A program made the position numbers and the translations under genes. Positions 8,830 to 50,784 of a stretch of 64,000 nt of DNA are shown piece by piece. Source of the DNA: Vibrio algicola (GTDB taxonomy: Bacteria; Pseudomonadota; Gammaproteobacteria; Enterobacterales; Vibrionaceae). Numbering within the stretch: position 1 is the first letter of the stretch; every line of letters starts with the position of its first letter. The notes under the pieces are model-generated. The model ran no database searches, was not told the DNA's origin, and worked only from the letters and a program-made list of their open reading frames with translations. Location of the stretch: NCBI RefSeq assembly GCF_009601765.2, contig NZ_CP045700.1:372001-436000 (forward strand), in the 5' to 3' direction.

Positions 8830-9897
8830 ATGGATTTTAAAAGCATGGATGTGATGAAATTTTTTACGGTATCAAATACCTCAATGTGTTGTGCTTTAGC
8901 ACTAAGCGCAAATGTCTACGCCAATGAAGATGCGAAGGGCTACTCAATTGTTCCTTATATCATTAATGGTAATGAAGCGGATGTTGCTGCATTTCCTTAC
9001 ATGGGGCTATTGCTCAAAGACTATTTAGATACCACAACCACAGAATATCCTAATGGTTATCTTGTTACTTTGTGTGGCTCAACTGTACTGGACGAACGTC
9101 ATGTGTTGACCGCTGCCCATTGTGTTGAGGCGATCACTGATGCTCAAAAAGAAGAAAACAAAAGATTGGCGGTGGTATTTAAGGTGCAAAATATCAATTC
9201 CGATATATTTGCTAATACTAAGTATTCGGTTGAATCTATCTATTATCACGATGATTACAACATCAATAATAATTTATCCCATGATATTGCAATTCTAAAT
9301 CTCTCAGAGCCCATTAGCAGTGATGATGTTTCGCGTAATAGCTATGTTGCAATAGCGGGGAGTGAGAGTGACTACCGTAGTAATGATTTTCAATTTACTC
9401 TGATCGGCTACGGTAATACCGGGCCTGCAACCTCCAATCCAAATGAAAACAATTCTAAAGTATTACAAAAGACTAAAGTCAGTTATATAACAGCAGATGA
9501 GTGTCAGAAAAACTACCCTGATGTAGATGATGCACAAATTTGTGTAACAGGTTCCATAGCGAATATGCTGCGTACAGGAGCCTGCCAGGGAGATTCAGGT
9601 GTGCCATTGCTTTACAGGCGAAATAATACGACATACCAAGCTGGTTTAGTCAGCTTTGGACCTGAATCGTGTGGTGATACCAGCCAAGTTGTCCAAAGTG
9701 TATATACTGAACTGGTGGATTATCAAGGCTGGATCAGCTCGGTATTAAATGGTACGGCTACCCCAAAACAGGCTATGAATGAAACCGATGATGATAGCAA
9801 TAACGAATCCTCTAATAGCAGTTCTGGTGGTGGCTCTTTAGGTGGTTTTGGATTGGCATTGTTAGGTTTGATTTATTGGAATCGTCGTCGTAGGTAA
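8830..9897 (+). CDS. Trypsin-fold serine protease with GlyGly-CTERM anchor
   Basis: A 355-residue S1-family protease. The triad reads His97 (TAAHC), Asp152 (SHDIAIL) and Ser256 (CQGDSG). The residue six before the serine, which sets S1 specificity, is Gly250 rather than the Asp of trypsin, so cleavage after Lys/Arg is not expected. GDSGV replaces GDSGG. The tail from about 327 is Ser/Gly-rich with GGG..GG, one hydrophobic helix and a basic end: a GlyGly-CTERM signal, processed by rhombosortase in this group and associated with type II secretion. Starts at 8845 or 8854 would give a cleaner signal peptide. Confidence 0.88.
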   Translation: MDFKSMDVMKFFTVSNTSMCCALALSANVYANEDAKGYSIVPYIINGNEADVAAFPYMGLLLKDYLDTTTTEYPNGYLVTLCGSTVLDERHVLTAAHCVEAITDAQKEENKRLAVVFKVQNINSDIFANTKYSVESIYYHDDYNINNNLSHDIAILNLSEPISSDDVSRNSYVAIAGSESDYRSNDFQFTLIGYGNTGPATSNPNENNSKVLQKTKVSYITADECQKNYPDVDDAQICVTGSIANMLRTGACQGDSGVPLLYRRNNTTYQAGLVSFGPESCGDTSQVVQSVYTELVDYQGWISSVLNGTATPKQAMNETDDDSNNESSNSSSGGGSLGGFGLALLGLIYWNRRRR

Positions 9898-27765: not shown

Positions 27766-28340
27766 TCAAGATGAAAAAATGGTTAACAACTGCAGGTCTG
27801 TGCGCCTCTATGGTTTTACCCGTGAGCGCGATAGCGGCAGATTATGCAATTGATACCAAAGGGGCGCATGCTTCGGTGAACTTTCGTGTCAGCCACTTAG
27901 GTTACAGCTTTACTCAAGGTCGTTTTAATACTTTTGATGGTACGTTTTCCTACGATCCGAGTAATGTTACTGCGTCAAAAGTGAATGTTGTGGTCGATAC
28001 CACCAGTGTAGATTCTAATCATGCTGATCGTGATAAGCACATTCGTAGTGATGATTTCTTAAATGCGAGTAAGTTTAGCAAAGCAACGTTTTCAAGCACC
28101 AAAGTAACCGATAAAGGCGATGGGAAATTAGTCATAGACGGTACATTAGACTTACATGGCAAGAAAATGCCTGTGACAATTGATGCACAATTTATCGGCG
28201 GTGGTGAAGACCCATGGGGTAAAGAGCGCGCCGGATTTAAAGGTACAACCCGTTTAGAATTAAAAGATTTTGGGATCAAAGAAATGGCAGGGGCGACTTA
28301 TGTTGATCTTGACCTATATGTTGAAGGCATCAAGCAGTAA
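27762..28340 (+). CDS. yceI: YceI-family periplasmic lipid-binding protein
   Basis: A 192-residue secreted protein. A signal peptide ends at about SAIAA, residues 22-26, and is followed by the YceI lipocalin-like barrel: GAHASVNFRVSHLGYSF, DKHIRSDDFLNASKF, and a C-terminal VDLDLYVEGIK. The family binds isoprenoid chains, probably quinones, and often accompanies cytochrome b561 as here. The ATG overlaps the b561 stop; a second ATG at 27771 could also serve as start. A strong terminator closes the operon. Confidence 0.93.
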   Translation: MIKMKKWLTTAGLCASMVLPVSAIAADYAIDTKGAHASVNFRVSHLGYSFTQGRFNTFDGTFSYDPSNVTASKVNVVVDTTSVDSNHADRDKHIRSDDFLNASKFSKATFSSTKVTDKGDGKLVIDGTLDLHGKKMPVTIDAQFIGGGEDPWGKERAGFKGTTRLELKDFGIKEMAGATYVDLDLYVEGIKQ

Positions 28341-28378
28341 TACGAGATAGAGCCAAAAAGAACCGTGACAATTTGAAT

Positions 28379-28428
28379 AAAATAAAGGCTGCCGATTGTA
28401 ATTAAACTCGGCAGCCTTTTTTATTTTA
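28379..28428. terminator. Bidirectional terminator, yceI/nadE
   Basis: AAAGGCTGCCGA (28385-28396) pairs with TCGGCAGCCTTT (28409-28420), with A-rich and T-rich flanks. It lies between convergent genes. Confidence 0.92.
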
Positions 28429-28460
28429 TATCATCACGTTAATCAAAAGAATGATTAGTG

Positions 28461-29297
28461 TTATTCGTCATCATAAATCGTGGGGATAGGTTGGCGCTTA
28501 TGTTGAGTCTTGGTATAAATGCTCACCAAGCGATCGGATGCTTGCTTAGATACTGGTTTGCCTTCTAAGAAATCATCTATTTGATCATAAGTCAGCCCTA
28601 ATGCCGCTTCATCGGCTTTTTGAGGATCGAGCTCTTCTAAATCAGCTGTCGGCACTTTTTGCACTAACGTTTCTGGTGCGCCTAATTCAGCCGCCAGTTG
28701 ACGAACTTGGCGTTTGTTTAAACCAAACAATGGCGCAAGATCGCAAGCGCCGTCACCAAACTTAGTATAAAAACCGGTGATATTTTCTGCCGAATGATCG
28801 GTGCCTAAGACTAAACCGCCAACATATCCTGCCACTTCATATTGGGCCACCATGCGAGCACGCGCTTTGACATTGCCTTTTACAAAGTCGAGTTTTTCTG
28901 CGCTTGTTGGTAGTAAATTAGTATGCTCAAGGGCTTGATGAGTCGCACTGTTCATGCCATCGACACTTGGTTTAATATTTACTGAAATAGAATGGCTTGG
29001 CTGAATAAACGACAGAGCTAATTGCGCTTCATCTTCATCTTTTTGTTCGCCATACGGCAGACGTACTGCAATAAATTGGTAGTCGTTGGAGGATGATTGC
29101 TGGTTGAGTTCATTAATTGCTAATTGCGCTAATCGACCGCAAGTGGTGGAATCAACGCCACCGCTGATACCCAAAATTAAAGATTTGCAACCCGATGATT
29201 GCAGACGATTTTTGATAAATGCAATCCGACGTGAGATTTCAAATTGCGCATCGATAGAAGGCTGAACGCGCATTTCTTGACGAATTTGTTGCTCCAT
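28461..29297 (-). CDS. nadE: NAD synthetase, ammonia-dependent
   Basis: A 278-residue NadE. It adenylates and amidates nicotinate adenine dinucleotide to NAD in the cytosol. The N-type ATP pyrophosphatase P-loop SGGVDSTT lies near residues 45-52, and [22 protein letters not shown] and [14 protein letters not shown] blocks (here [12 protein letters not shown]) are present. Length equals E. coli NadE; there is no glutaminase domain. AAGGAATC precedes ATG 29297. It diverges from a second NAD-pathway gene. Confidence 0.96.
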
Positions 29298-29445
29298 GAT
29301 GATTCCTTATAGCCACAGATGTAAGACGTTTTAATCATATACTTAAAAGGGGGAAGGTTACTAGTTCAAATCTAGTTCGAATCAAGCCTTTTCGGTGTTA
29401 AACTCATGCATTAAATATCATCTTAGTTGTTTACAGAGATCCAAT

Positions 29446-29982
29446 ATGACCACCATAGCAGTGTTTGGCAGCGCATTTAATCCACCGAGTTTGGGGCATA
29501 AATCGGTGATCGATTCATTAATGCATTTTGATCGTGTGTTATTAGTGCCAAGTATTGCGCATGCGTGGGGTAAATCGATGCTGGACTTTGATGTCCGCTG
29601 TCGCATGATTGAAGGGTTTATCGATGAAATCGGGCAAGAAAAAGTGCAATTGTCACGTATTGAGGAGGCGCTCTATCAACCTGATGGGGTAGAGGATAAC
29701 CGGAGTGTTACCACCTTTGATGTGCTTGGCGCTCTGCAACAACGTTATCCAGACGCGGTACTAACTTTTGTCCTCGGTCCTGATAACTTGATGAATTTTT
29801 CCAAGTTTTATAAAGCGGATGAGATTGTGCAACGTTGGTCGGTATTGGCGTGTCCTGAAAAATTAGCGATCCGCAGTAGCGATATTCGCCAACGCTGTAT
29901 CAATAATCAAACCATTGCAGAGTTCACCACGCCATCGGTTCAGCGTTATATTCAGCAAAAAAAACTCTATATTCAACAATAA
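29446..29982 (+). CDS. NadD-like nicotinate-nucleotide adenylyltransferase
   Basis: A 178-residue nucleotidyltransferase. The N-terminal GSAFNPPSLGH carries the conserved GxFNPxxxGH phosphate motif, LGPDNLMNF follows in the centre and the C-terminal AIRSSDIR replaces ISSTxIR. The family joins nicotinate or nicotinamide mononucleotide with ATP, the step before NadE, which lies divergent 150 bp away. A longer frame begins at 29395, but ATG 29446 is where homology begins. Vibrio usually also have a canonical nadD near rlmH/holA, so this may be a paralogue. Confidence 0.8.
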   Translation: MTTIAVFGSAFNPPSLGHKSVIDSLMHFDRVLLVPSIAHAWGKSMLDFDVRCRMIEGFIDEIGQEKVQLSRIEEALYQPDGVEDNRSVTTFDVLGALQQRYPDAVLTFVLGPDNLMNFSKFYKADEIVQRWSVLACPEKLAIRSSDIRQRCINNQTIAEFTTPSVQRYIQQKKLYIQQ

Positions 29983-29986
29983 GCAG

Positions 29987-30607
29987 TTATAAAAGTTGAT
30001 CGGCAACTAATTGGCAAAGTTGATCGGCTTGAACCTCGTTACCATTGAATAAAGTGGTAATAATATTGGCGCGTGCTTGACCTGATTTTTGCATTTTAAA
30101 CGCTTCTCGTACCTTGAGTGCTAGCTGCAATGCTTTATCTTCTGATTTGTCGTTTAGGTTTTGGCTTACGGTTGGGTGATTATTAGCAAGCTTAGGCGCA
30201 TGTTCTTTTTTATGACAACTTGCGACTAATTCTTGAATAAACACGGTATACAAAGCTTGCAACGATGGATTATTCGCCTCAAAGCGTAGGGTGCGAAACT
30301 TGTTGACCAATGCAGTCAATAACTCGGTTGGATTGAATAAACCGGCTTGATGTGGATAGGCGTGTTGTGAGCGGATCGAAATGTTGATTTCAGTGATCCG
30401 GCTATTGGGTAGATAACTTATTGCCACTAAGCACTCAATCGGCAGCCACAACAATTGTCCGGCAGTAAACAAGTATTCCTCTTTGCCTAACCGCACCGCA
30501 ATCTCGCCTTGTTCAACAGAGATCAGTTTATGTTTGCTGGTCTTTTTTCGCGCAGTGGTGGTCAGAAAAGGATGTTGAGTACTGGTATGGGAAATAAGAT
30601 AATTCAT
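29987..30607 (-). CDS. Cupin-like AraC-family-related protein, no HTH seen
   Basis: A 206-residue protein. The first 100 residues look like an AraC-type cupin sensor (KLISVEQGEIAVRLG, FTAGQLLWLPIE, ISYLPNSRITEINISI). The C-terminal half is helical, but the paired helix-turn-helix block of AraC regulators is not recognisable and length falls short of the usual 270-300. It could be a truncated regulator or a distinct helical family. Convergent with the NadD-like gene with 4 bp between stops. Function is uncertain. Confidence 0.55.
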   Translation of the reverse strand: MNYLISHTSTQHPFLTTTARKKTSKHKLISVEQGEIAVRLGKEEYLFTAGQLLWLPIECLVAISYLPNSRITEINISIRSQHAYPHQAGLFNPTELLTALVNKFRTLRFEANNPSLQALYTVFIQELVASCHKKEHAPKLANNHPTVSQNLNDKSEDKALQLALKVREAFKMQKSGQARANIITTLFNGNEVQADQLCQLVADQLL

Positions 30608-30868
30608 GTGTTAAGTTCGGCGTACGAGTAAGATGGGCTAAGACTAGCGTTTTCTTGATCCCGATGCCAATTTTTGTGGCTAAAATATCAGAATTTAAAC
30701 ATAAAAAGGCTCAATATGGTCATTCTGGACGATGTTGTTATTCACTATTGGCGCTATTTCAGGTACTTTACCTGTCCAGTTTTAAGCTTTGTATGGTTGA
30801 ACTCGCTAAAAAATTAAAGCGATTTTTCAAGCGTACAAATTATGTTCTATTCATAACAGCAGTAAATA

Positions 30869-31975
30869 ATGAGTATTGAAAACGATCCGTATAAAGAAAT
30901 CCGTCCTTACAACGATGATGAAATCCCTGCCGCATTAGATCGGCTGATCAATGATGATGAGTTTATCAATGCCATCATCAAATATCGTTTTTCCGAAAAA
31001 TCGGCTTGGTTTAAAAAGCTGGTGTCCCCGATCTTGAAGTTTTATCTCAAACTGAAATGGTCCAAACTGAAAACGGTTAATGATATTCAAATCGAAATCG
31101 AAAATTTCATGGGCTCGACATTAGATAAAACAGCCAATGGCATCACTTATACGGGGCTGGAAAACTTAGATCCGAAACAAGCGTATTTATTTGTTTCCAA
31201 TCACCGTGATATAGCGATGGATCCTGCGTTAGTTAATTTGGGACTGTTTAATAACGGCCATCAAACCGTGAGAATTGCGATTGGTGATAACTTATTAAAA
31301 ATGCCTTGTGCGACCGAAATGATGAAGTTAAACAAAAGCTTCATTGTAAAACGTTCCGCTAAAGGTCCGCGTGAAATGATGAAAACACTGGGTCAATTGT
31401 CCGGTTACATTAAGCATTCACTTGAAACCAATAATTCGATTTGGATCGCGCAGCGTGAAGGGCGTGCCAAAGATGGCAATGATATGACCGAGCCGGCGAT
31501 TTTAAAGATGTTTCATGTAGAAGGCCGTCGTCAAAAAATCCCATTTGCGGATTACATCAAGTCATTGAAAATTGTGCCGGTGTCTATTTCGTATGAAAAC
31601 GATCCACTGGATGTCGCCAAAGCCAATGAGTTATACCAACTCGAAACACATGGTCATTATCAAAAAACAGAATTTGAAGATATTGAAAGTATTGTTAAAG
31701 GTATCATTGGAAAGAAAGGGCGCGTCAATGTTAGCTTTGGTGACGTTGTCACTGGTAACTTTGAAACACCAGATTTATTAGCGCAAGAAATTGATCGTCA
31801 GATACATGATTTATACCGTTTGTACCCGATTAACTTGCTTGCCGCTGGGAAAAAAAGTGATTCGATCACCGAAGAAACCAAAGCGACATTGGCAGAAAAA
31901 CTGCGTCAATTACCTGAAGGTGCGCAAGAAAAGCTGGTTGCGATGTACGCCAATCCAGTCGAGAAGAAGCAGTAA
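30869..31975 (+). CDS. Glycerolipid acyltransferase-like protein (PlsC superfamily)
   Basis: A 368-residue protein with a PlsC-type domain. The active-site block is SNHRDIAMDPAL (about residues 110-121), in which His and Asp are separated by five residues rather than the usual four, and the later AQREGRAKDG carries the glycerol-3-phosphate-binding pattern (EGR). No membrane helix is clear. It probably transfers fatty acyl groups to a lysophospholipid or related acceptor. The start codon lacks a strong ribosome-binding site. Monocistronic with a strong terminator. Confidence 0.75.
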   Translation: MSIENDPYKEIRPYNDDEIPAALDRLINDDEFINAIIKYRFSEKSAWFKKLVSPILKFYLKLKWSKLKTVNDIQIEIENFMGSTLDKTANGITYTGLENLDPKQAYLFVSNHRDIAMDPALVNLGLFNNGHQTVRIAIGDNLLKMPCATEMMKLNKSFIVKRSAKGPREMMKTLGQLSGYIKHSLETNNSIWIAQREGRAKDGNDMTEPAILKMFHVEGRRQKIPFADYIKSLKIVPVSISYENDPLDVAKANELYQLETHGHYQKTEFEDIESIVKGIIGKKGRVNVSFGDVVTGNFETPDLLAQEIDRQIHDLYRLYPINLLAAGKKSDSITEETKATLAEKLRQLPEGAQEKLVAMYANPVEKKQ

Positions 31976-32007
31976 AAACGAGAAATAAACAAAAAATTAA
32001 AGACAAT

Positions 32008-32043
32008 AAAAAAGCAACCAACTGTGAAGTGGTTGCTTTTTTT
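32008..32043. terminator. Bidirectional terminator after the acyltransferase
   Basis: AAAAAAGCAACCA (32008-32020) pairs with TGGTTGCTTTTTT (32030-32042) around a 9-nt loop, lying between convergent genes. Confidence 0.92.
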
Positions 32044-32076
32044 ATTTCAAAAATCGATGATTATTTTAAACCGCGA

Positions 32077-32397
32077 TTAACGGTTTAATGAGCGACTTTT
32101 GAGTTCGAAAATTAATTTTTCAGCGCTGCATTCAAATTTAATACGAGCGGTTAAGGTCGTTGCGTCATCCGCCATTGCTTCAATTTCATGTTGGAAATCG
32201 GCATTCACTTCTTTTGCTAATGCAAGGTAAGGGGCAAAGTGAGCCAATAAGGTCTCTTTGTTTGGTCCTTGGATATGAACATCAGCCACATCATCACCTT
32301 CTTTGATGATAAAGCCCATTTCTGCACTGCAACCACATGCTTCACAAACTTCGTTTTCACCAGATACTAATTCGAGTTCTTGTCTTTCATTGCTCAT
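32077..32397 (-). CDS. YfcZ/YiiS family protein (DUF406)
   Basis: A 106-residue small acidic cytosolic protein. It has the CEACGCSAEMGFIIKEGDD block near residues 18-36 (three cysteines in CEACGC) and the HIQGPNKETLL and AKIKFECSAEK-like pattern of the DUF406 family represented by E. coli YfcZ. The function is unknown; the cysteines could hold a metal. AAAAGGC is upstream of the start. Monocistronic. Confidence 0.85.
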   Translation of the reverse strand: MSNERQELELVSGENEVCEACGCSAEMGFIIKEGDDVADVHIQGPNKETLLAHFAPYLALAKEVNADFQHEIEAMADDATTLTARIKFECSAEKLIFELKSRSLNR

Positions 32398-32570
32398 TAT
32401 ATTTTGCCTTTTAAGTGACTAATGCGATTATTTTACGCTTCATTTTTTGGCAACACTAGTAAAAAACTATGATAAAGATTAAAAAAAAGTTGATGGTTGA
32501 ATAAGTAACTAAAACAACTTAGCCCGATGATAATTGAAATAAGCTGTTCAACCATAAACTTAGATCAAAT

Positions 32571-33222
32571 TTAAACGGGGTGTACTACCGGAAAATCATA
32601 GTGAGGATGCGCTTGTACTAAAGTTTGATAGCCATACACTTGCAAAATATTGTCAGGGGTTAAAGTGTGCCAAGGCGCGCCATCGGCGACAATATCGCCT
32701 TGATTTAATAACAAGATCCGATCGGCATATTGAGCGGTAAGATTAAGATCATGCAACACGACAATCACGGCTGCGCCTTTACTTGCCATCGATTTAGCTA
32801 ACGCTAAGGTATTGTGCTGGTGGGCGAGATCTAAGGCCGACGTGGGTTCATCCAACATAAAAATACAGTTATGTTGCGCGTGACTGAGTTGGGTTAATAC
32901 TCGAGCTAGATGGACTCGTTGCTTTTCACCTCCCGATAGCGAGGGGTAGGAACGCTCACTTAATTCAGGTATACCGACTTGTTGCATCATCTTGGTTGTG
33001 GTGTGTTTTAAATCGTGGTTATTGAGGCCTAGAGGGATCCCTCCGAGTTCGACCACTTCTTTAGCTAGAAATGGAAAGGTGAGGGTGCTGTGTTGCGGCA
33101 ACATGCCAAGTTGCTTCGCTAACTGCGATTTCTGCCAATCTTTTTGCGCTCTACCAAAGTAATGCAAACTCGGCGTTTTACCTGCATGACGATTTATTGG
33201 GTTGGACAGGGCTTGTTCGCCA
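32571..33222 (-). pseudogene. hutD: hutD remnant: haem ABC transporter ATPase lacking Walker A
   Basis: The C-terminal three quarters of a HutD/HmuV haem-import ATPase are intact in sequence: the Q-loop region (GMLPQHSTLTFPF), signature SLSGGEKQRVHLAR, Walker B CIFMLDEPTSALD and switch histidine VVLHDLNLT. The N-terminal part with Walker A (GPNGAGKS) is absent. Homology starts at about 33222, where the DNA runs straight into hutC in another frame. The open frame does run to 33380, but that part is only the shadow of hutC. Such a protein could not bind ATP normally. Confidence 0.85.
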
Positions 33223-33739
33223 CCCCTGCCAGTAACATTACCGTGACAGACGTACCAAATTGACTGGTTCCAAGTTTGTAAATCATGATGGTGGTTAATG
33301 CGCCACCTAAAAAAGCAAATACCGGTACGGCGGCAAGATCCATAAACAGCGGATAATCTTGCTTTAAGCCCGCAAAACAAACAATCGCAAACGCCGCGCC
33401 GAGTGCCGCGCCAGAGGATACCCCAATAATGCTAGGCTCAGCTAATGGATTACGAAATAGCCCCTGCATCACAGCGCCACAAAGCCCAAGGATCGCGCCA
33501 ATGAATAGACACAATAAAGTACGAGGCAAACGAACCTGCTGAATGATTAGCTCAACATGAACCGGCAATTGGTTCATTGTTGGCATGATAGCGGTTGGAA
33601 ATAGGCGCTCAATGCTGCTTTGTAGAGCGTGGCTAAAGGAAATATTCATCGGACCAACTGAAATCGACATCACGATCATGCTGCACAGTAAGAATAAAAA
33701 GGCAGCAAACAAAATACGAATGGGAATATGGCGTAACAT
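33194..33739 (-). pseudogene. hutC: hutC remnant: truncated haem ABC permease
   Basis: It encodes 181 residues against about 340 for HutC/HmuU. The N-terminal FecCD-type permease is clear (VRLPRTLLCLFIGAILGL, GLFRNPLAEPSIIGVSSGAALG) and follows the family to VMLLAGVA. The reading then turns into a short foreign tail and a stop at the fusion with hutD. About half of the membrane helices are missing, so transport is not expected. The upstream start is preceded by AAGGAC. It overlaps the hutD remnant at the junction, about 33202-33222. Confidence 0.88.
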
Positions 33740-33740
33740 G

Positions 33741-33869
33741 TCATGTCCTTATGGATAAATTGCTGCCTGCTGGCATCGCAAAGGCTTTTTGCTGATCGAA
33801 TTGAGTGAACATCAAGATGTGCGCACCAATCGCAATGCTTGCCGCTACTGTATACCGATTGAAATTCAC
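33741..33869 (-). pseudogene. tonB1: tonB1 remnant (N-terminal 42 codons)
   Basis: GTG 33869, with AGGAC upstream, opens a 42-codon frame. Its product resembles the N terminus of Vibrio TonB1: a hydrophobic anchor (YTVAASIAIGAHILMF) followed by the KAFAMPAG motif. It then stops at TGA 33741-33743, next to the hutC ATG. The proline-rich and C-terminal domains of tonB, and exbB, exbD and hutB that follow in Vibrio, are all gone. This stub cannot energise a receptor. Confidence 0.8.
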
Positions 33870-33929
33870 AAAGTGTCCTTACTGGTAGAGAATGTTAAAT
33901 AAATGATCGAGGTGATCATTGATCAAGAT

Positions 33930-33954
33930 GCAAATAATATCAATTATCATTTGC
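33930..33954. promoter_or_regulatory. Fur box between tonB1 remnant and hutX
   Basis: GCAAATAATATCAATTATCATTTGC is a 25-bp near-palindrome; its core AATAATATCAATTATCATT fits the Fur consensus built from GATAAT repeats. It sits in the divergent promoter region, so hutX/hutZ and the remnant operon are both probably iron-repressed. Confidence 0.75.
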
Positions 33955-34033
33955 ATTGTTATTTGGGTGAAATTAAGATGCATCTCATCAACACGATCAG
34001 CAACATTGTGATAACAAATAAGAGAAGGTCTTA

Positions 34034-34546
34034 ATGGAAGAGAGACAACAAATGAATAGCGCAGTGATGAGTATGATTGACAGCGATCCGAGTTTATTGC
34101 CAGCCGCTATCGCACAACAACTGAAGATTTCAGAGCTTGAGGTGGTGGTCGCATTACCAAGTGAAATGGCGGTCGTTGTCGATGGGAAGCACGCCCAAAG
34201 CCTGTTAGAGCATTTGGTCGGTTGGGGGAATATGACCAGCATTGTGCATTCGGGCGGATCGATTTTTGAAGTAAAAGCACCGTTTCCAAAAGGGAAAGTC
34301 GCCCACGGATATTATAACTTAATGGGGCGCGAGTGCGAGTTACAAGGTCACTTAAATTTATCCAAAATGTCTAAAGTCGCTTTAGTCTCTAAACTATTTC
34401 GCGGTAAAGAAAGCTATTACTTTGGCTTTTTTGATTTGCAAGGAGACAGTATTTTTAAAGTGTACTTAGGGCGGGATAACAAACGAGCCTTGTTGCCAGA
34501 ACAAGTTGAAAAATTCAAACAGTTGGTGGTTAAGTTTACATCCTAA
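34034..34546 (+). CDS. hutX: Haem-utilisation cystosolic carrier HutX
   Basis: A 170-residue cytosolic protein of the HutX family, which in V. cholerae binds haem and hands it to HutZ. Core blocks VVALPSEMAVVVDG, WGNMTSIVHSGGSIFEVK, YYNLMGRECELQGHL and SYYFGFFDLQG are present and the length is normal. AGAAGG lies 5 nt before ATG 34034. The gene sits first after the Fur box; hutW, usually upstream of it, is missing. An 18-codon frame (33978-34034) that ends at the hutX ATG occupies the gap. Confidence 0.9.
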   Translation: MEERQQMNSAVMSMIDSDPSLLPAAIAQQLKISELEVVVALPSEMAVVVDGKHAQSLLEHLVGWGNMTSIVHSGGSIFEVKAPFPKGKVAHGYYNLMGRECELQGHLNLSKMSKVALVSKLFRGKESYYFGFFDLQGDSIFKVYLGRDNKRALLPEQVEKFKQLVVKFTS

Positions 34547-34652
34547 ACGACTTAACCATTGGAAATTATTATATAAAGATTCAGTCTATCGTTATCGAGT
34601 AAACAGCAATAAAGCAAGATAGTCACTCTAATACTAGCTAAGGGAAGAAATT

Positions 34653-35174
34653 ATGGAAAATGAAGTAAAACAACAAAGGTTGCAGAATCGACTCGGCCCA
34701 GAGATCCAAGAATTTCGCGATGAGCGTAAAACCATTCAACTGGCGACTATTGATAAAAACGGGCAACCGAACGTGAGTTACGCGCCATTTGTGTCAAATA
34801 AGCAAGGTTACTTTGTGTTAATTTCTGAGATAGCTCGTCATGCGCGTAATTTATTAGATCAGCCGAATGTTTCATTGATGTTGATCGAAGATGAAGAGTC
34901 CGCCAAACAATTGTTTGCTCGTAAACGTTTAAGTTTTGATGCAAAAGCCAGTGTCGTTGAGCGTGATACAGCGCAATGGCAAGGTGTGATTGAACAAATG
35001 GAACAGAGATTTGGTGAGATCATCACCAGCCTTAGCCAATTAGAGGATTTTAAACTGTTTTGTTTAAGCCCGCAGCAAGGCCTATTTGTAAAAGGCTTCG
35101 GACAAGCATTCCAAGTCTCGAGCGATGACCTAGTCGATGTAGTGCATTTAGAACAAGGGCATAAAAAGTGGTGA
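34653..35174 (+). CDS. hutZ: Haem-degrading enzyme HutZ
   Basis: A 173-residue split-barrel protein of the HutZ family; in V. cholerae HutZ opens the haem ring with oxygen to release iron. The sequence is complete: ATIDKNGQPNVSYAPFV, YFVLISEIARHARNL, EDEESAKQLFARKRLSFDA, and the C-terminal QGLFVKGFGQAFQVS. The family haem-ligand histidine region near the C terminus, VVHLEQGHKKW, is kept. AAGGGAAG precedes the start. It follows hutX by 106 bp and ends in a strong terminator. Confidence 0.93.
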   Translation: MENEVKQQRLQNRLGPEIQEFRDERKTIQLATIDKNGQPNVSYAPFVSNKQGYFVLISEIARHARNLLDQPNVSLMLIEDEESAKQLFARKRLSFDAKASVVERDTAQWQGVIEQMEQRFGEIITSLSQLEDFKLFCLSPQQGLFVKGFGQAFQVSSDDLVDVVHLEQGHKKW

Positions 35175-35220
35175 GTAGCTAAACTCTATTACGATCTTAA
35201 TAATAGACGGTTTTAAGATG

Positions 35221-35264
35221 AGAAAAGGGTCAGTTCGCAGTGAACTGACCCTTTTCCCTTTTTT
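35221..35264 (+). terminator. Terminator after hutZ
   Basis: GAAAAGGGTCAGTTC (35222-35236) pairs perfectly with GAACTGACCCTTTTC (35242-35256) around a 5-nt loop, followed by a T-rich run. Confidence 0.93.
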
Positions 35265-35603
35265 GCAAGCAAAGGTGTTTTACGTTCCCATCGAGGGGAA
35301 TATTGTTGTTCGGAAATCATACACCTTTTTGGTTATCAAAACCATACAAATTATCAATAGATTGGATATGTTTTGTATTTTGTGAATGTTCTTATAATTT
35401 GAGCCATTTTAACCGCATTTTGGGGCAGTTAGTGGGTATGAGTCTGTAAAACTCTGTTGAAATAGTATTGTTTGAACTATCAGTATTTAAGTGGTCACCT
35501 TGCAGTTCACCTTAGATGATAATATCTTAAGCCAAATAGTTTGTTTTGTGCAATTGGAGCACAGAGTTTCAGACCAACAACAGATATACCACAAGGAATG
35601 CAC
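35265..35603. other. Non-coding gap before the thioesterase
   Basis: Plain AT-rich sequence. A TATAAT-like box lies at about 35391-35396 without a good -35. No gene, repeat or strong hairpin is seen. Confidence 0.5.
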
Positions 35604-36023
35604 ATGATTTGGAAGAAACCCGTTACTCTTGAAATACTGAATGCGACGTCTAAAAATACCATCATGGAGCATTTAAACATTGTGTATAGCGAGTTAACGG
35701 AAGACAGCATTTCTGCCACTATGCCAGTTGATCATACTACCCATCAACCACTAGGCATGTTACATGGTGGCGCTTCGGTGGTACTGGCAGAAACATTAGG
35801 CTCGTTAGCGGCTAATATGTGTGTTGATGATAATGCGTATTGTGTTGGGCTTGATATTAACGCTAATCATATTCGCGCTAAGCGTCGTGGAGTGGTGACA
35901 GGCACGACTAAACCTATTCATATTGGCGTGTCGACTCAAGTGTGGCAGATTGAAATTGTGGATGAAGAACAACGCTTATTGTGCACCAGTCGTATTACTA
36001 TGGCGGTGAAACAACGCAAATGA
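35604..36023 (+). CDS. Hot-dog fold acyl-CoA thioesterase (YdiI/PaaI type)
   Basis: A 139-residue single hot-dog domain. The conserved block is GMLHGGASVVLAETLGSLA (about 49-67), with the helix-bound glutamate that acts as catalytic base in MenI/YdiI and EntH. GLDINANHIRAKRRGVV and CTSRITMAVK follow. It should hydrolyse an aromatic or acyl-CoA thioester, possibly dihydroxynaphthoyl-CoA in menaquinone synthesis. ATG 35604 is chosen for its AAGGAA site; the frame extends to 35541. Its stop overlaps the next start (ATGA). Confidence 0.87.
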   Translation: MIWKKPVTLEILNATSKNTIMEHLNIVYSELTEDSISATMPVDHTTHQPLGMLHGGASVVLAETLGSLAANMCVDDNAYCVGLDINANHIRAKRRGVVTGTTKPIHIGVSTQVWQIEIVDEEQRLLCTSRITMAVKQRK

Positions 36024-36256
36024 TCATAGAATTTACTCACGGTAAAGTTATCGCCAATATGCATGAAGTGGTGGTGCGATTAAACGCTGGCGGGCAGGTA
36101 ACTTTGCAGGCTCAAATCGATGCGTTAACTTTAATCGGGCGTGGCGCGAATGTGATCACCGCCTATGACATGCAATGCCAGTGGTCAGTCGCATTAGATA
36201 ACGATGTACAGCTGCAACAAGTAGCGGATTTTATTGGCGTTCCGGTTAAACGATAA
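36020..36256 (+). CDS. Small conserved-type protein coupled to the thioesterase (possibly DUF3389)
   Basis: A 78-residue protein whose ATG overlaps the thioesterase stop (ATGA), implying translational coupling. It is a small beta-rich acidic protein (IIEFTHGKVIANMHEVVVRL at the start) with no signal peptide. I believe it belongs to a Vibrio family annotated DUF3389, but this is from memory and not certain. There is no catalytic motif to suggest a function. Coupling suggests a role linked to the thioesterase. Confidence 0.6.
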   Translation: MIIEFTHGKVIANMHEVVVRLNAGGQVTLQAQIDALTLIGRGANVITAYDMQCQWSVALDNDVQLQQVADFIGVPVKR

Positions 36257-36426
36257 CAATAACGCTGGCACTTAAACGCAGAAACTCACTCAGATAGCCC
36301 GCTTGGTTAGGCTTAAAAGAGGAAATCCACCCCCCAATTTTTTTAGATTTAATCAAAGAAATTCCCAGTTTTGCGTGCTAATCTAGGAAATATTGTTATC
36401 ACCCAAGATAGTTGAGTTTCCTCTTT

Positions 36427-38124
36427 ATGAGCAGTCCTCGTTTACGCATTCAATTTGAACGTTTATTTGAGCATTTTCAAGGTGAAGATGCTTCCATTCA
36501 ACTCGAAGAACTGACGGACATTTTATGCTGTACCCGCCGTAACACTCGTATTGTATTAAATAAACTGGCGGAAGAAGGTTGGGTGGAATGGATCCCAGCA
36601 GCTGGACGTGGCAAACAATCTCAATTGATTTTTAAACGCAATAAATACGATGTCAGTGAAAATCTTGCCAAGCGTTATTTAGAAGAAGGTAAAATCGAGC
36701 ATGCATTATCGGTGCTGGATAACGATCCAGCACGTTTAACTCAAATATTTCAAAGTTACCTAGGTGTCAGTCATTTAGAAGGGCAGCAAGTAGTGCGCTT
36801 GCCTTATTATCGTCAACTGGCCAACTTAAATCCGGTTAAACCGACTCGTCGCTCCGAGCAACATATTATTCACCAAGTATTCAGTGGATTAACTCAGTTA
36901 GACGAACATGAACAAGTTCAACCTGATCTTGCCCATCATTGGGAAATGCTCAGCCCGACTCATTGGCGTTTTTATCTTCGCTCCGGTATTCGTTTTCATA
37001 ATGGCGATCGTCTACAGATCAAAGATATCATTGAAAGCATTGAACAAATGAGTTCGATGTTATTATTCAAACATATCGAATCTGCTTCCTCATCGGCAAC
37101 CAACACGCTGGATATTTTACTCAGTGAAGCCGACCACCATTTGCCACTATTGTTAACTGAGACTCTGGCTAAGATCTTGCCGAGCAGTTCAGAGCGATCA
37201 GATAATTTCGATTTAATTCCTAATGGCACTGGGCCTTACCGAGTGACGCGTAATGATAATATGCGTTTGGTTTTAGAAGCTCATGATCAGTACTTTGGTT
37301 TTCGTCCATTAATTGAACGGGTTGAAGTATGGGTTATTGATGAAACTCACTCGTCGATGGTGTATCCGAGTTTGACCAACCCAATGAAGCCCAAAGAAGG
37401 GCAATTTATTGATGTTGAACTTGATCCTGGTTGCACTTATTTACTGCTTAATCAAATCACCGGTCTGGCAAAAGATCCATTATGGGCAGAGTATTTTGCC
37501 AGTCGTTTGAATTCTTTTAGTTTATTGCGTGAAATCCCCGATCAAAAAGTGATTGAACTGGGTCTTTTGCATGCGCATGGTTTAAAACCCGGTTGGCATC
37601 ATAGTGGTACCTATCATGCTGATATTGAACTGCCATTTGAGCCAGATACCACCAAGCCCGTTATTACCGTGGCTTATCATGCGATGCACCCTTTGTTTCC
37701 TCATGTGGTGGCAGCAATCAAATCACTACTTAGAAAAGATGGCATTGCGATCCGTACAGTAAAATACGATGTAGAGGTTGAAAATCCTCAAGAAATCGAC
37801 ATTTGGCTTAAACCTATGGGGCTGGCGAATAATCGAAAAGATGCCTTGATGGGCTGGTTACTCGGCTATAGTGATATACAGAAGATGAGTAAACCGGAGT
37901 TATTTCAACGATGGCAACAATTAATCAGTGATTGGCGTGGGGATAATAATGTTTCGTTTCCGGCCAAAGCATTGGCTAAAGAGTTAGTGCAGAGTAAGCA
38001 ATTGATCCCGATGTTTCATTGCTGGTTAGGAGTGGGGCAAGATCATTGTGGTTCGTTACAAAACGCCACTTGCAACGCATTAGGTTGGTTTGACTTTAGT
38101 CAGGTGTGGGTTAAGCCTGAATAG
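36427..38124 (+). CDS. sgrR: SgrR-family transcriptional regulator
   Basis: A 565-residue regulator with an N-terminal winged helix (about 1-100: LEELTDILCCTRRNTRIVLNKL-like region and EEGWVEW..GRGKQSQL) and a C-terminal solute-binding-protein domain of family 5 (about 150-560: RRSEQHIIHQVFSGL, HWRFYLRSGIRFHNGD, NGTGPYRVTRN, LGWFDFSQVW). E. coli SgrR senses sugar-phosphate stress and activates the small RNA SgrS; no SgrS-like gene was found upstream here. TTG 36412 in frame is possible, but ATG 36427 fits the family N terminus. Confidence 0.88.
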   Translation: MSSPRLRIQFERLFEHFQGEDASIQLEELTDILCCTRRNTRIVLNKLAEEGWVEWIPAAGRGKQSQLIFKRNKYDVSENLAKRYLEEGKIEHALSVLDNDPARLTQIFQSYLGVSHLEGQQVVRLPYYRQLANLNPVKPTRRSEQHIIHQVFSGLTQLDEHEQVQPDLAHHWEMLSPTHWRFYLRSGIRFHNGDRLQIKDIIESIEQMSSMLLFKHIESASSSATNTLDILLSEADHHLPLLLTETLAKILPSSSERSDNFDLIPNGTGPYRVTRNDNMRLVLEAHDQYFGFRPLIERVEVWVIDETHSSMVYPSLTNPMKPKEGQFIDVELDPGCTYLLLNQITGLAKDPLWAEYFASRLNSFSLLREIPDQKVIELGLLHAHGLKPGWHHSGTYHADIELPFEPDTTKPVITVAYHAMHPLFPHVVAAIKSLLRKDGIAIRTVKYDVEVENPQEIDIWLKPMGLANNRKDALMGWLLGYSDIQKMSKPELFQRWQQLISDWRGDNNVSFPAKALAKELVQSKQLIPMFHCWLGVGQDHCGSLQNATCNALGWFDFSQVWVKPE

Positions 38125-38179
38125 CCAAGCCAATAGCCTAATCTAAGCCAGAAAAACATGAGAATGAAGGAGATAGCCG

Positions 38180-38554
38180 ATGAGTGTTATTACCGAGAGT
38201 GATATTCACAAAAGTGACCAAGGTCGTCTACAACCTTGCGCGGTGGTATTAACCACCACCAACGATGATGAAGTGCGGCAGTTATTGATTGAGCAATTGC
38301 TCGAAAAACAATTGGCGGCTTGTGTGCAAGTGTTACCTATTTCCAGTTATTACCAATGGCATGGCGAGATCAATCAAGATAAAGAATCACTTTTGATCAT
38401 CAAAATGGTTAAGACCCAGTACAAAGCGGTCGAACACTTAATACTGAGCGTGAATACCTACCAAGTACCACAAGTAGTGATGCTGCCAATTGAAACTGGG
38501 TATGCGGAATACTTGCAGTGGATTAATAAGCACGCTCAACCTGATGTTTTATAG
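38180..38554 (+). CDS. cutA: Divalent-cation tolerance protein CutA
   Basis: A 124-residue CutA1-type protein. Family blocks AVVLTTTNDDE, LLEKQLAACVQVLP, SYYQWHGEINQDKESLLIIK and VMLPIETGYAEYLQWI are complete. CutA forms a very stable trimer in the cytosol and affects copper tolerance; its exact role is unsettled. AAGGAG precedes the ATG. It sits 55 bp after sgrR and 23 bp before the NYN gene, so the three may share a transcript. Confidence 0.95.
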   Translation: MSVITESDIHKSDQGRLQPCAVVLTTTNDDEVRQLLIEQLLEKQLAACVQVLPISSYYQWHGEINQDKESLLIIKMVKTQYKAVEHLILSVNTYQVPQVVMLPIETGYAEYLQWINKHAQPDVL

Positions 38555-38577
38555 TTACTATTCAAATTTGGATTTAT

Positions 38578-39051
38578 ATGCAAACTGTTTCGATTTTAGT
38601 AGATGTACAAAATATTTATTACACCACGCGTGATATTTACCATCGTCACTTTGACTACAATGCTTTTTGGGCCAAAGTCATGAAAGATCGCACCTTAGTA
38701 CATGCTAATGCCTATGCAATCGCGCGCAGTGATGATAAACAAAAGCAATTTCATAATATTTTGCGTGGCATTGGATTTGAGGTGAAGTTAAAGCCGTTTA
38801 TCCAACGTCAAGATGGCTCAGCCAAAGGCGACTGGGATGTGGGTATTGCACTCGATGCCATTGAACTGGCTGAAATCTCCGATGTAATTGTGATCGCATC
38901 AGGCGATGGCGACTTTGATTTATTGGCAAAACGTATTCAGCAGCGTTACGGTAAAAAAGTTGAAGTGTATGGCGTGCCGGGACTGACGGCGAATTCTTTA
39001 ATCGAAGCCGCCGATGAATATTTTCCGATCCAAGCTGATTTGTTGCTTTAA
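38578..39051 (+). CDS. NYN-domain (LabA/DUF88-like) putative ribonuclease
   Basis: A 157-residue single NYN domain. The PIN-like acidic residues are seen in ILVDVQNIYY (Asp near 8), the aspartates of KGDWDVGIALDAIEL (near 85) and IASGDGDFDLLAKRI (near 110), which supports metal-dependent RNA cleavage. The family includes LabA-like proteins of unclear targets. It follows cutA by 23 bp. Convergent with the Fe-S membrane protein gene. Confidence 0.85.
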   Translation: MQTVSILVDVQNIYYTTRDIYHRHFDYNAFWAKVMKDRTLVHANAYAIARSDDKQKQFHNILRGIGFEVKLKPFIQRQDGSAKGDWDVGIALDAIELAEISDVIVIASGDGDFDLLAKRIQQRYGKKVEVYGVPGLTANSLIEAADEYFPIQADLLL

Positions 39052-39126
39052 GGCTTCAGTATGTCAATAGAGCTTAACGCTACCCGTTGCAGTCACAAGA
39101 AGATCAGAGAGTGACGACAATAAGTA

Positions 39127-40341
39127 TTAATAACGGATGTAGTCCATAACCTGAATAAGCTGCATCCGAATGTCATTACTGGTTTGACTGTGCCAATAAC
39201 CGCCGGCAAAAGCCAGTAATGGGATCCCAAACATGATCACCAGCACCAATATCATTAAGTGCTTGCTGGATAATTGCCAACCGTTACGAGTTTTAAACCC
39301 TAACGCTTCTTTTTTAGGGCAAGCGGAAACACAGCGCATACAAGCTTGACATTCATCGGTGCGAATTTGGCTTGCAGTATGAATAATAATATTGGATGGG
39401 CAAGCTCGAGTACATTTATCGCAATTCATATCGCCACGTTCATTTAAACAGTGATTCTTTTGACGACGAATTTTAAATGGGCTGGCAAAACTGATTAAGC
39501 CTAATAGCGCACCGTAAGGGCAAAAATACCGACAAAAAGCGCGTTTACGCCATGCTGCCATTAATAAAATCACTGCAAATACCACCAAGGTAATCGTACC
39601 TGGTGCGACAAATACCCATGCGGTTTTGATATCGGCAATCTTGTGATAGTTGCCATTGAGGTAATAGGGAATATTAGCTGGGTGCATGCCTAAAGAAATA
39701 AACGCAAAAAAGGCCAATAATAAGTATTTCATCATCCGCAATGGCCAATCTATCCAGGCGGGTGGTAAATAGGCTTTTTTGATCATTTTTAAACGAAGCT
39801 TATAAATATATTCGCCTGCCAATCCCAATGGGCATATCCAGCCACAAAAGGCGCGTTTGCAGACAATACCAGTAATTAATACCGTAAATAACATCACCGC
39901 GCCAGCAGGGTGGGTTTGATCCCAAAATCCTAAAGTAACAATCGCTTTAAGCTGAATGGCGGCGGCAATTGGCAAGAACGCATCGGTGACATCAGGGCGT
40001 AAAAAACTCGGAGAAATCTGCGCGGTTAATAATGCGGTATGAACGGCATATTGAATGGCAACAAAGAAGAATGACAGTGCCATTGCATGTTGGCAAGCAT
40101 TGCGCAGAATATCGGGCCGTTGGCTAGCTTGGGCAAACTCAGGACGAATTTTGTGTACGCCAGTGATCACCATAACAGCCATCAGCAATGCGACAAATAA
40201 TGGCCAATAAAGAGTGCTTAGCGCCGCCGTGAGTACAACGATAGTGGCTATCGCCGCACCTAATTTTTTACCACTGGTGTAGAGCAAGCTAACGCTGTAC
40301 ACCAAGGCCAGCATTAACGTAAAAGATTCGATAAAAGTCAT
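39127..40341 (-). CDS. NapH/NosR-type 4Fe-4S polytopic membrane protein
   Basis: A 404-residue inner-membrane protein with about seven hydrophobic helices. Two CxxxCP motifs typical of the NapH/NosR family (CGWICPLG near 175 and CRYFCPYG near 275) and two cytoplasmic ferredoxin-like clusters (CDKCTRACP and CQACMRCVSACP near 310-350) are present. It resembles E. coli YccM and should move electrons across or along the membrane. No reductase gene is adjacent, so its partner is unknown. ATG 40341 is preferred over the longer frame from 40419. Confidence 0.82.
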   Translation of the reverse strand: MTFIESFTLMLALVYSVSLLYTSGKKLGAAIATIVVLTAALSTLYWPLFVALLMAVMVITGVHKIRPEFAQASQRPDILRNACQHAMALSFFFVAIQYAVHTALLTAQISPSFLRPDVTDAFLPIAAAIQLKAIVTLGFWDQTHPAGAVMLFTVLITGIVCKRAFCGWICPLGLAGEYIYKLRLKMIKKAYLPPAWIDWPLRMMKYLLLAFFAFISLGMHPANIPYYLNGNYHKIADIKTAWVFVAPGTITLVVFAVILLMAAWRKRAFCRYFCPYGALLGLISFASPFKIRRQKNHCLNERGDMNCDKCTRACPSNIIIHTASQIRTDECQACMRCVSACPKKEALGFKTRNGWQLSSKHLMILVLVIMFGIPLLAFAGGYWHSQTSNDIRMQLIQVMDYIRY

Positions 40342-40554
40342 AATCGCACCACTTGAGTTTGTGATGCCATTATAAGAAGTTTGAGGATGCAGATCTGGTG
40401 ATAAAATCAGCATCTGCACTTTCTTTGATGTGAGTTAAATTTTACCCGAAATACGCTACTACTTTAGAGTAGAAATAGGCCTAAAAGACGGAGTTGTAGA
40501 GCGGGTATTAGGGTTTTATTGCCGCGAAATTAACCGCGACGACAAACCTGCTTG

Positions 40555-40767
40555 TTACTCTTGTTCGATTTGTTCTTGTTCGATTTGTTCTTGTTCGCTT
40601 TGTTGCTGAGCATCGACTTGTTGATCGTTTTGCTGCTGCGCTTCCAGTACTAACTTTTCACGATCGGCTTTTGATACGTATTTAGGTTTATTCGAGGTGT
40701 GAAGTTTTGAGTTCATCTTCTTAATACGTTTTTTTAAGATCGAATTGATTTTCTTCTTACGATTCAT
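40555..40767 (-). CDS. Small basic-acidic protein, DUF2986 family
   Basis: A 70-residue protein. The first 25 residues are very basic (NRKKKINSILKKRIKKMNSK), then a KPKYVSKADREKL block, and a Gln/Glu-rich tail. The N-terminal half matches the DUF2986 family of Vibrionaceae, whose function is unknown. The basic segment could bind RNA or DNA. The tail EQEQIEQEQIEQE is built from a 15-bp tandem DNA repeat, so its length probably varies among strains. GGAGAG precedes the ATG. Confidence 0.8.
   Translation of the reverse strand: MNRKKKINSILKKRIKKMNSKLHTSNKPKYVSKADREKLVLEAQQQNDQQVDAQQQSEQEQIEQEQIEQE
40559..40603. repeat. 15-bp tandem repeat in the DUF2986 gene
   Basis: TCTTGTTCGATTTGT occurs at 40559-40573 and 40574-40588, and with one change at 40589-40603. 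Being a multiple of three, copy changes lengthen the Glu/Gln tail without a frameshift. Confidence 0.9.
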
Positions 40768-41051
40768 GCTTCTCTCCAGTAAATGTCTACCCTCGAGTCA
40801 GCCGATGGTATTGATGGGGGCGCATCATAGCAATAAACCCAAACCCCTGCTAATGAAATTTAGGCGCTATCGATTGCTTTGTTGTGCTAAAAATGAGCAA
40901 TAAATGCATAAATCGAGCATATATCTTTATTTATAAGGGCAGTATCTATATATTCAGGCGCAAAGAGCATACTCACTTTGCTAACAGTAATAATAAGCAG
41001 TAAAGGCTTTGAGTATTGATCATTCCATCTATTCAACTAAACGGTAACGTA

Positions 41052-48533: not shown

Positions 48534-50729
48534 TCATCGATTGATTAAAAGAGCCTTAGATTGATAATCTAAGCTAACGCCCCAGTTACGACCTGATTGA
48601 GTATAAAAGTCTTGATTTTCGCCCGATTTTTTACCGTTCAGTTCAGAATATAACCAATATTTTTTATCCAAAGCATTAAATAATCCTGCACGTAAGGTTA
48701 AGTCCTGGATAGGACGATAATAGGTGGTTAAATCGACTAAGCTATAACCTGCCGCCACAAAATTATCATCTTGTGACCAATCATTTTTACTCGCCGCCAT
48801 TGTGATATTAACTAAACCACCAAAAGTATGATTGACACTGTCATAGCCAACGCCAACATTACCGGTGAGTGGGGCAACAGAATCTAGGTGATCGCCACTG
48901 TCTTTGTCTCGACCTTCGGCGTAAGCCACCGAAAATTTACTGTAGATACCTTGCGGAGCGTTAAAAGCTTGATCAAGTAAAATAGTCGATGAAAATTCGA
49001 CCCCATAGATTTCAGCATTGGCGATATTACTTTTACTGTAATGATCTTTATTGCCGACTTTACCTAAATATTGGTCAGTGATGAAGTCACTGTAATCATT
49101 GTAGAAGCCAACTAATTCAAAACGCGCGGATTGACTTTGTCCACGGACTCCTAGCTCATAAGATAAGCTTTTTTCGGGCTGAAGATCGGGATTGGCATCG
49201 ACGATAGCACCTTGATTATAAGAGTAATAAAGATCGTAAACCGTCGGTGCTTTAAAACCTTGGCTAATTTGCGCAAAGCTGCTGAAGTGATCACTAAAAT
49301 GATAAACAGTGCCTATTTTTCCGGTAAACGAGTCACTTTTATTTTCAGGATATTCAGTGGTAAAACCGTCGTCAGTCTTAGGTGAGGTTTTAAAAGAATC
49401 GTAACGCAAACCTGCCGTTAGAATGACACGTTCATCGAGTAAAAAGGCTTGGTCTTGAATAAACGCGCCCCATTTAACTAAGGTAGCATCCGGCATACCA
49501 GTGTTGCCAGGGCCGACGGTGGCGAGATCATATTTATGGTCGCTATTATCAATTTTAAACTTATTGTGCATAAAGTTAGCACCATAAGTGAGCTGATGGA
49601 ACCCATGATTTGCTTCGATTAATTTATCAAATTGGGCATCAAATTGAATGCTATCATCACTGGCATCACGCTTACGCATGCGCTTTCCAGTCCCCATCAT
49701 ACCTGTGGTGGTATCGTAATTTTTCGATAAGGAATCCGACATTTGAGAGTTGATTGACCAAGCCAGTTGATCGGCTAGTAGGGTATTCATGCTCCAATCG
49801 TGCGAGAGTCCAACCCGAAGACGTTCGCTGGTATCTTGATTATAACTATCATTATAAGTGATCAATGGCATCGGCATGCTAGGTATAGTCATTGAGTAGC
49901 CGTCATAAGACAATTCATCTTCATCATATTGACGTTGGTAGTATTCAACCGTTAAGCCAATTCGGTGAGCATCATTAATTTGGTAATAAGCTTTACCTAA
50001 CACATTACCAATGTTTTTATCGGCGGGATCGGCCGCGCCACGATCAGGTCCTGAAATATCGGCGCCATCACCGTAGGTTTCTGTTTCATACCCATCGGCA
50101 TAAGTGACCATCAATAAGGTTTCTAACTTACCTTGACGCATTGCCCAAGTTAAAGTGTTTTTAAAGGTTTCATCGGCTGAAGTGTAGCTCGATTTAATCC
50201 CAAATCGATTTTCGTTGCCATCGTTGATCAATACATCAGAAGGGTCTTTGGTTTTAAATAGCACTACACCACCTAAGGCATCGGAACCATATAAGATTGA
50301 AGAGGGACCTTTGTTAATTTCGATGGCCGATAAGGTATCGATTTCGATATCATTGGGATAGAAACGTTGCTCATTAGACCCTGGGTTGTACGAGGTGGGT
50401 TGTTGGACACCATCGACCATAACCTTGACGCGACTGTCTTCCATACCACGGATGTTATAACCTGAGATCCCAAAGCGACCACTGCCTTGTGCATCCACAC
50501 CTGGTGTGTATTGCAGTGCTTGTTTAGGATCGCTGGCCATAGTGTCATCGATCTCGTTATTTGAAACGGTTTCGACAGAAGCGGAAACATCGTTAATATT
50601 TTGCTCGGTACGGGTGGCAGACACCACAACTTCGTTTAAGGCACTTTTTTCTGCCGCTATTAATGGTGAGGAAAATGAGAAAGCAATCGCAGTAGCCAAT
50701 AGGTTAGGTTTAAAATTGAAGGTAGACAT
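48534..50729 (-). CDS. TonB-dependent haemoglobin/haem-type receptor
   Basis: A 731-residue outer-membrane receptor. A signal peptide ends at about IAA-E, followed by a TonB box (NEVVVSATRTE), a plug domain and a beta-barrel ending in an aromatic-rich strand. The FKAP (near 493) and NPDL (near 513) positions match the FRAP/NPNL loop of haem receptors, but the histidine normally between them is absent, so the ligand may differ. ATG 50729 with GGATAA is chosen over the upstream ATG 50780. A Fur box lies 56 bp before the start. Confidence 0.85.
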   Translation of the reverse strand: MSTFNFKPNLLATAIAFSFSSPLIAAEKSALNEVVVSATRTEQNINDVSASVETVSNNEIDDTMASDPKQALQYTPGVDAQGSGRFGISGYNIRGMEDSRVKVMVDGVQQPTSYNPGSNEQRFYPNDIEIDTLSAIEINKGPSSILYGSDALGGVVLFKTKDPSDVLINDGNENRFGIKSSYTSADETFKNTLTWAMRQGKLETLLMVTYADGYETETYGDGADISGPDRGAADPADKNIGNVLGKAYYQINDAHRIGLTVEYYQRQYDEDELSYDGYSMTIPSMPMPLITYNDSYNQDTSERLRVGLSHDWSMNTLLADQLAWSINSQMSDSLSKNYDTTTGMMGTGKRMRKRDASDDSIQFDAQFDKLIEANHGFHQLTYGANFMHNKFKIDNSDHKYDLATVGPGNTGMPDATLVKWGAFIQDQAFLLDERVILTAGLRYDSFKTSPKTDDGFTTEYPENKSDSFTGKIGTVYHFSDHFSSFAQISQGFKAPTVYDLYYSYNQGAIVDANPDLQPEKSLSYELGVRGQSQSARFELVGFYNDYSDFITDQYLGKVGNKDHYSKSNIANAEIYGVEFSSTILLDQAFNAPQGIYSKFSVAYAEGRDKDSGDHLDSVAPLTGNVGVGYDSVNHTFGGLVNITMAASKNDWSQDDNFVAAGYSLVDLTTYYRPIQDLTLRAGLFNALDKKYWLYSELNGKKSGENQDFYTQSGRNWGVSLDYQSKALLINR

Positions 50730-50784
50730 ATAGTTATCCGTTACTATGTTAATAAATAAGTTCGAACGGATTCCATACAATAAG

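Follow-up and report, generated by a model that had tools for sequence, protein, structure and literature searches.

Two recent deletions very probably inactivated the TonB1-HutBCD haem-import operon of Vibrio algicola

What is left of a haem importer when its operon has collapsed beside intact genes of the same pathway, and how did the collapse come about? This question is raised by a locus in Vibrio algicola, whose genome comprises 3.51 Mb in 3 contigs and is 99.98% complete. We analysed a window of 64,000 nucleotides (G000:C2:372001-436000), and positions below are those of this window. Its locus shares gene order, divergent promoter region and the neighbouring hutX/hutZ with the Vibrio tonB1-exbB1-exbD1-hutBCD/hutWXZ locus, as the available portion of a report on the huv cluster of V. 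anguillarum describes it (PMC5524678). In contrast to that locus, the window holds only remnants of tonB, hutB, hutC and hutD, while exbB, exbD and hutW are gone. No report of this collapse was found in the literature searched.

The remnants and their junctions, both of which are known from the assembled sequence, are as follows.

33741..33869, minus strand: tonB1 remnant, a 42-codon open reading frame of 37 native codons (33869-33759) and 5 out-of-frame codons
33749..33760, minus strand: hutB remnant, I-Y-P-stop, in another frame than the tonB stub; site of the first breakpoint, where AT is common to hutB and tonB
33194..33739, minus strand: hutC remnant, a 181-codon open reading frame of native codons 1-174 (33739-33218) and 7 out-of-frame codons
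33217..33223, minus strand: second breakpoint, GTGGCGA, which fits hutC and hutD alike (microhomology of at most 7 bp)
32571..33221, minus strand: hutD remnant, beginning at about codon 59 and running to the stop, with Walker A gone
32571-33380, minus strand: the 269-codon open frame of hutD

These limits follow from tblastn with the proteins of Vibrio sp. S17_S38, which placed TonB residues 1-37 at 33869-33759, HutC 1-174 at 33739-33218 and HutD 59-275 at 33221-32574. The first-pass annotation, made from the sequence alone, had described a 42-codon tonB N-terminus that stops at the hutC start; the open reading frame has that length, but its last 5 codons are not native. It had rightly seen hutC shift frame into hutD. 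Its statement that hutD lacks everything before the Q-loop did not hold, as approximately 42 hutD codons still precede this motif (motifs read by eye in an alignment with relatives) and Walker A is what was lost.

We then compared the remnants with the parts of a working importer. With Pfam and NCBIfam models the tonB piece gave no match, and its identity rests on its alignment to the TonB of relatives (S17_S38, 72.97% over 37 residues, E 5e-13; V. proteolyticus, 37.8%, E 0.018). With residues 1-37 only, a TonB with its C-terminal domain is absent at the locus. ExbB and ExbD had no match within window positions 28001-41000, and three codons of HutB leave no periplasmic protein. The HutC remnant covers 49% of HutC in a coverage survey and matched FecCD (PF01032) at model positions 2-138 of 311 only, so that a full permease is absent. 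The HutD remnant matched NF010068 over 59-259 of 261 (256.3 bits, below the cut-off of 261) and begins after GPNGTGKSS, the Walker A of relatives; an ATPase with this motif is lacking. Judged from its sequence, the remnant locus retains in working form none of the parts of a TonB1-HutBCD haem importer that were looked for, namely TonB, ExbBD1, HutB, permease and ATPase. Because HutC amounts to half a permease and HutD is without Walker A, the locus is predicted to be unable to import haem, and haem import has probably been lost or weakened in this strain.

The ancestral arrangement can be read from relatives. By HutZ, the closest named ones are V. hibernica (L002) and Vibrio sp. S17_S38 (L081), at 87% each, followed by Vibrio sp. 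CK2-1 (L003, 82%), V. rumoiensis (L004) and V. litoralis (L005), the last two at 79% each; we take this group to be the Rumoiensis clade. At the syntenic spot, with hutX/hutZ divergent, S17_S38, CK2-1, V. rumoiensis and V. litoralis all carry tonB-exbB-exbD-hutB-hutC-hutD, the order that had first been assumed for Vibrio, and many other Vibrionaceae have the same genes (survey of gene coverage in 80 loci plus the window). V. hibernica has the six genes in the same order, but its tonB carries a 1-bp frameshift: near position 9037 of its locus, tonB1 is 1 bp short relative to S17_S38, which may be decay or a sequencing error. The hutW gene is missing here from the window and from all five clade relatives and is present in two other loci (L006, L007); its loss is thus older. 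The V. algicola genome gave two matches to the HutW model, neither over cut-off.

Alignment to these intact loci placed both breakpoints to within a few bases. Relative to the S17_S38 locus, the first deletion lacks positions 6561-9181 (2,621 bp) and spans tonB codon 38 through hutB except for its last three codons. The sequence is native tonB to codon 37 (Asn, 33761-33759), then reads ATT TAT CCA TAA (33760-33749) in the hutB frame, and the hutB stop is followed by the region that precedes the hutC start. Thus, of the two deletions first proposed, the one that was thought to reach the hutC start ends inside hutB, whereas the one from mid-hutC to early hutD stands as described. The latter lacks 5292-6008 of the same locus (717 bp), that is, hutC codons 175-353 and hutD codons 1-59, Walker A included. 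Overlap at the breakpoints was judged by comparison with relatives, since any repeats lost with the deletions would be missing from the present sequence. At the first breakpoint, the overlap of tonB and hutB comprises at least AT. At the second, the bases GTGGCGA (33223-33217) fit two readings, hutC Gly-Val-Ala with one further base and hutD Ser-Gly-Glu; the overlap is stated as at most 7 bp because ancestral wobble positions are not fixed. The microhomology at the junctions is thus 2 to at most 7 bp.

From these comparisons, we consider it very likely that the locus is a TonB1-HutBCD haem-import operon which two recent deletions, each between sites of low homology, have put out of function. 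One deletion would have run from tonB codon 38 through exbB and exbD to almost the end of hutB. The other would have joined hutC after codon 174 to the region of hutD codon 59, with a shift of frame. This is ordinary pseudogenisation, and a clear case of gene decay.

Several measures bear on the age of the deletions. The 390 remaining codons contain no stop, and 3.5% of single-base changes in the remnants would create one; together, these values limit neutral divergence to at most 85 changes (7.3% per site) at 95%, or to 2.5% per site if indels are included at an assumed rate of 0.1 per substitution. The synonymous difference to the sister is large (pS = 0.66-0.75), and the divergence of the hutC and hutD remnants from S17_S38 is rich in third-position changes (0.72 and 0.63, respectively). 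Amino-acid identity of the hutC remnant to V. rumoiensis was 0.741 (S17_S38, 0.748) and to V. litoralis 0.667 (S17_S38, 0.709); for the hutD remnant the values were 0.634 (0.639) and 0.635 (0.616). Codon-model branch lengths were near saturation and LG protein lengths were used instead, which gave 0.147 for the window's branch versus a stem of 0.130 plus tips of 0.004-0.028 for the intact sister. By parsimony, the remnants had 10 window-only versus 6 sister-only changes and seven controls had 29 versus 32, a comparison of low power that leans slightly towards a faster rate in the remnants. On these sequence measures, there is no clear excess of amino-acid change in the remnants.

The most direct evidence of recency is HutC of Vibrio sp. 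S11_S32 (P0242), in which 143/144 residues ahead of the breakpoint are identical to those of the window and a normal C-terminal half, aligned without gaps to S17_S38 HutC, follows beyond it. This comparison covers the HutC protein only, from its annotated start at Met31, and bears on the hutC-hutD deletion alone. The initial suggestion that the deletions are recent is thus upheld by the absence of stops, by a branch about as long as that of the intact sister and by this near-identical HutC that passes the breakpoint. With intact orthologues in close relatives and little decay, the remnants have the sequence features of a recent pseudogene.

Database searches were also made with the remnants. 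Among the best 120 matches to HutD, the only one above 78% identity was P0121 (242 aa, 4 cluster members), which corresponds to the window's own frame; its 4 cluster members were not counted as truncated copies, and the cluster may include full-length members. P0121 starts with Met where the window has ATT at 33299, which points either to an uncommon choice of start codon when the source was annotated or to a variant. A statement that the species has no intact copy, drawn from this search, was dropped once S11_S32 HutC had been found. The search with truncated HutC gave no near-identical match among the best 120; the top match covered 96% of the query at 60% identity, and shorter ones, some of which may be contig-edge partials, reached 80% over 46%. 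Of these matches, two (P0002 and P0003) were inspected at the level of their sequences.

It is also possible that one complex event left hutC as an island, a variant compatible with the main explanation. The two junctions lie only ~540 bp apart, as such an event might leave them. The order and orientation of the remnants are ancestral, however, as two simple deletions explain, and the timing of the two losses is not separable; all that S11_S32 reveals is that it does not carry the hutC-hutD deletion. We regard a single event as rather unlikely and keep to two deletions.

Other parts of the haem pathway are still present in the window.

34034..34546, plus strand: hutX, intact (TIGR04108, 194.6 bits against a cut-off of 110)
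34653..35174, plus strand: hutZ, intact (TIGR04110, 288.6 bits against a cut-off of 225)
33932..33949: AAATAATATCAATTATCA, the invariant core of a Fur-box-like block between tonB and hutX
48534..50780, minus strand: TonB-dependent haem/haemoglobin receptor gene, an open frame of 748 codons

HutX and HutZ, the cytosolic haem carrier pair, both exceed their equivalog cut-offs and have intact frames. Their combined protein branch is 0.164 in this genome versus ~0.07-0.09 in the sister pair, while four other flanking genes have 0.069 versus ~0.08-0.10; the longer hutX/hutZ branch possibly reflects relaxed selection. All 18 bases of the AAATAATATCAATTATCA core are unchanged in 6/6 aligned sequences, and the block, by its resemblance, is a candidate Fur box. 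The receptor frame scores 448.1 bits with TIGR01786 (cut-off 323.75) and 370.5 bits with TIGR01785 (cut-off 316.85). It is nearly full length in three relatives (G177, G070 and G012) at 66-73% identity; in a fourth (G174), only the receptor end is visible, in a locus of 2,266 bases. The receptor gene and HutX/HutZ are thus still there, and it is the dedicated step at the inner membrane that has been lost.

We next searched the genome for replacement parts. TonB_C had one match, which closes a ttpC-exbB2-exbD2-tonB2-type cluster beside fhu-like genes, in which gene names rest on order and resemblance. In this cluster the TonB domain was over cut-off and a long frame matched TolQ/ExbB models below cut-off; a 180-codon ExbB2-like frame had no NCBIfam match at 1e-10 and was matched by V. 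proteolyticus ExbB at 36% identity. ExbD had two matches genome-wide, one in the same cluster and the other at C1:1471098. The five FecCD matches were a single-domain permease that is 38% identical to HutC, the two halves of a 668-codon FhuB-like frame, the hutC remnant and one sub-cut-off match. PF01497 had two matches, both on C1, and tblastn of V. proteolyticus HutB against these sites (L138, L140) gave nothing at E <= 1e-3. Nothing genome-wide exceeded the NF010068 cut-off, the remnant having an E-value of 3.8e-76. Thus, the TonB_C, FecCD, PF01497, NF010068 and tblastn searches revealed no second HutB, HutC, HutD or TonB1 in this genome. Another conceivable haem route is the dipeptide permease, and the available part of one report describes E. 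coli Dpp as a haem transporter (PMC3792355); for DppA, no match was over cut-off, and the best of 5 weaker ones had 139.7 bits against 1005, which counts neither for nor against this route.

These searches also bear on an assembly error, by which two false joins within ~540 bp would conceal an intact operon in the living strain. In its favour, the near-identical S11_S32 has HutC past one of the breakpoints. Against it, the genome is in 3 contigs at 99.98% completeness, and no separate HutB, HutC, ExbD1 or TonB1 turned up elsewhere, the ExbD match at C1:1471098 being left aside. Moreover, a repeat-collapse mechanism is missing because the breakpoint sites share so few bases. We therefore hold an assembly error to be very improbable.

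Some DNA match to the collapsed region occurs in 201/227 genomes of the genus, and of the matches listed, those across the junctions came from the window's own genome alone; no relative keeping these exact short genes was seen there or among the 80 loci. That the short frames (a TonB N-terminus, half of HutC and a HutD without Walker A) were kept for some use is suggested by the open, third-position-rich hutC and hutD remnants, but selection that acted until a recent deletion leaves just such a pattern, the Walker A, half of the HutC membrane domain and the TonB C-terminal domain are missing, and the arrangement was seen outside this genome neither in the 80 loci nor among the matches listed, so that we give this reading almost no credence.

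How often is the importer lost in the genus? HutZ was over cut-off in 197/227 genomes and HutD (NF010068) in 187/227, the two tables being compared by hand using per-genome E-values rather than bits. Seventeen of the 197 HutZ genomes, this one included, had no HutD over cut-off, so the importer-less state recurs. Neighbourhoods of HutZ were inspected in the 10 of the other 16 genomes for which the place of HutZ was listed. No importer lay beside HutZ in five (G096, G102, G138, G224, which had a distant ABC match only, and G175, where a hutC relic with stops remains). Importer genes were split between frames in four others (G086, G090, G197, G221), some of which may be sequencing errors, and in the tenth (G213) the neighbourhood ends at a contig edge. 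In two genomes (loci L136 and L137), some of hutB, hutC, hutD and hutW are split between frames beside intact hutX/hutZ. The window's receptor had weak partial matches in G175, G224, G096 and G138 and a 36% match in G102; because of this, its retention here is not part of a general pattern, and these matches speak against a general receptor route.

Two losses elsewhere resemble this one. Vibrio sp. S9_S30 (L018, the G175/L129 locus) likewise has intact hutX/hutZ beside a lost importer. Only the hutC relic was found there (L018 8313-8607); this loss is apparently older than that in the window and independent of it. In Aliivibrio salmonicida LFI1238, the available portions of two reports (PMC2627896, PMC4324432) describe a haem locus with a tonB1 frameshift, a tonB1 that is still induced by iron limitation and a haem receptor annotated as a pseudogene. 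TonB1 is thus lost from a Vibrionaceae haem locus in both cases, there by a frameshift, whereas in the window deletions also took ExbBD1 and HutBCD and the receptor frame is open.

How the remaining genes might function can be considered from related species. According to the available parts of three reports, haem uptake in V. cholerae and V. anguillarum can be served by TonB2 systems (PMC4496571, PMC5524678, PMC2627896), and in V. algicola the TonB2-type system may power the remaining receptor. By the same partial accounts, hutBCD stimulate haem use in V. cholerae and are not essential (PMC4496571), and HuvBCD are required for haem use in V. anguillarum (PMC5524678). HutX and HutZ may serve another haem source or be in a first stage of decay. 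We think it doubtful, though worth entertaining, that the pair is useful without HutBCD and TonB1, perhaps also in others of the 17 genomes, with haem arriving via the receptor, TonB2 and another inner-membrane route or coming from the cell itself. If true, recurring loss would mark HutBCD as a dispensable step. The simplest account is that the pathway is under weak selection and has begun to decay.

In V. algicola, a dedicated haem importer has thus been lost recently and in nature, and the other parts of the pathway persist. Together with a near-identical relative whose HutC extends beyond the breakpoint, this natural loss of HutBCD is well suited to asking what, if anything, takes haem through the inner membrane in its place.
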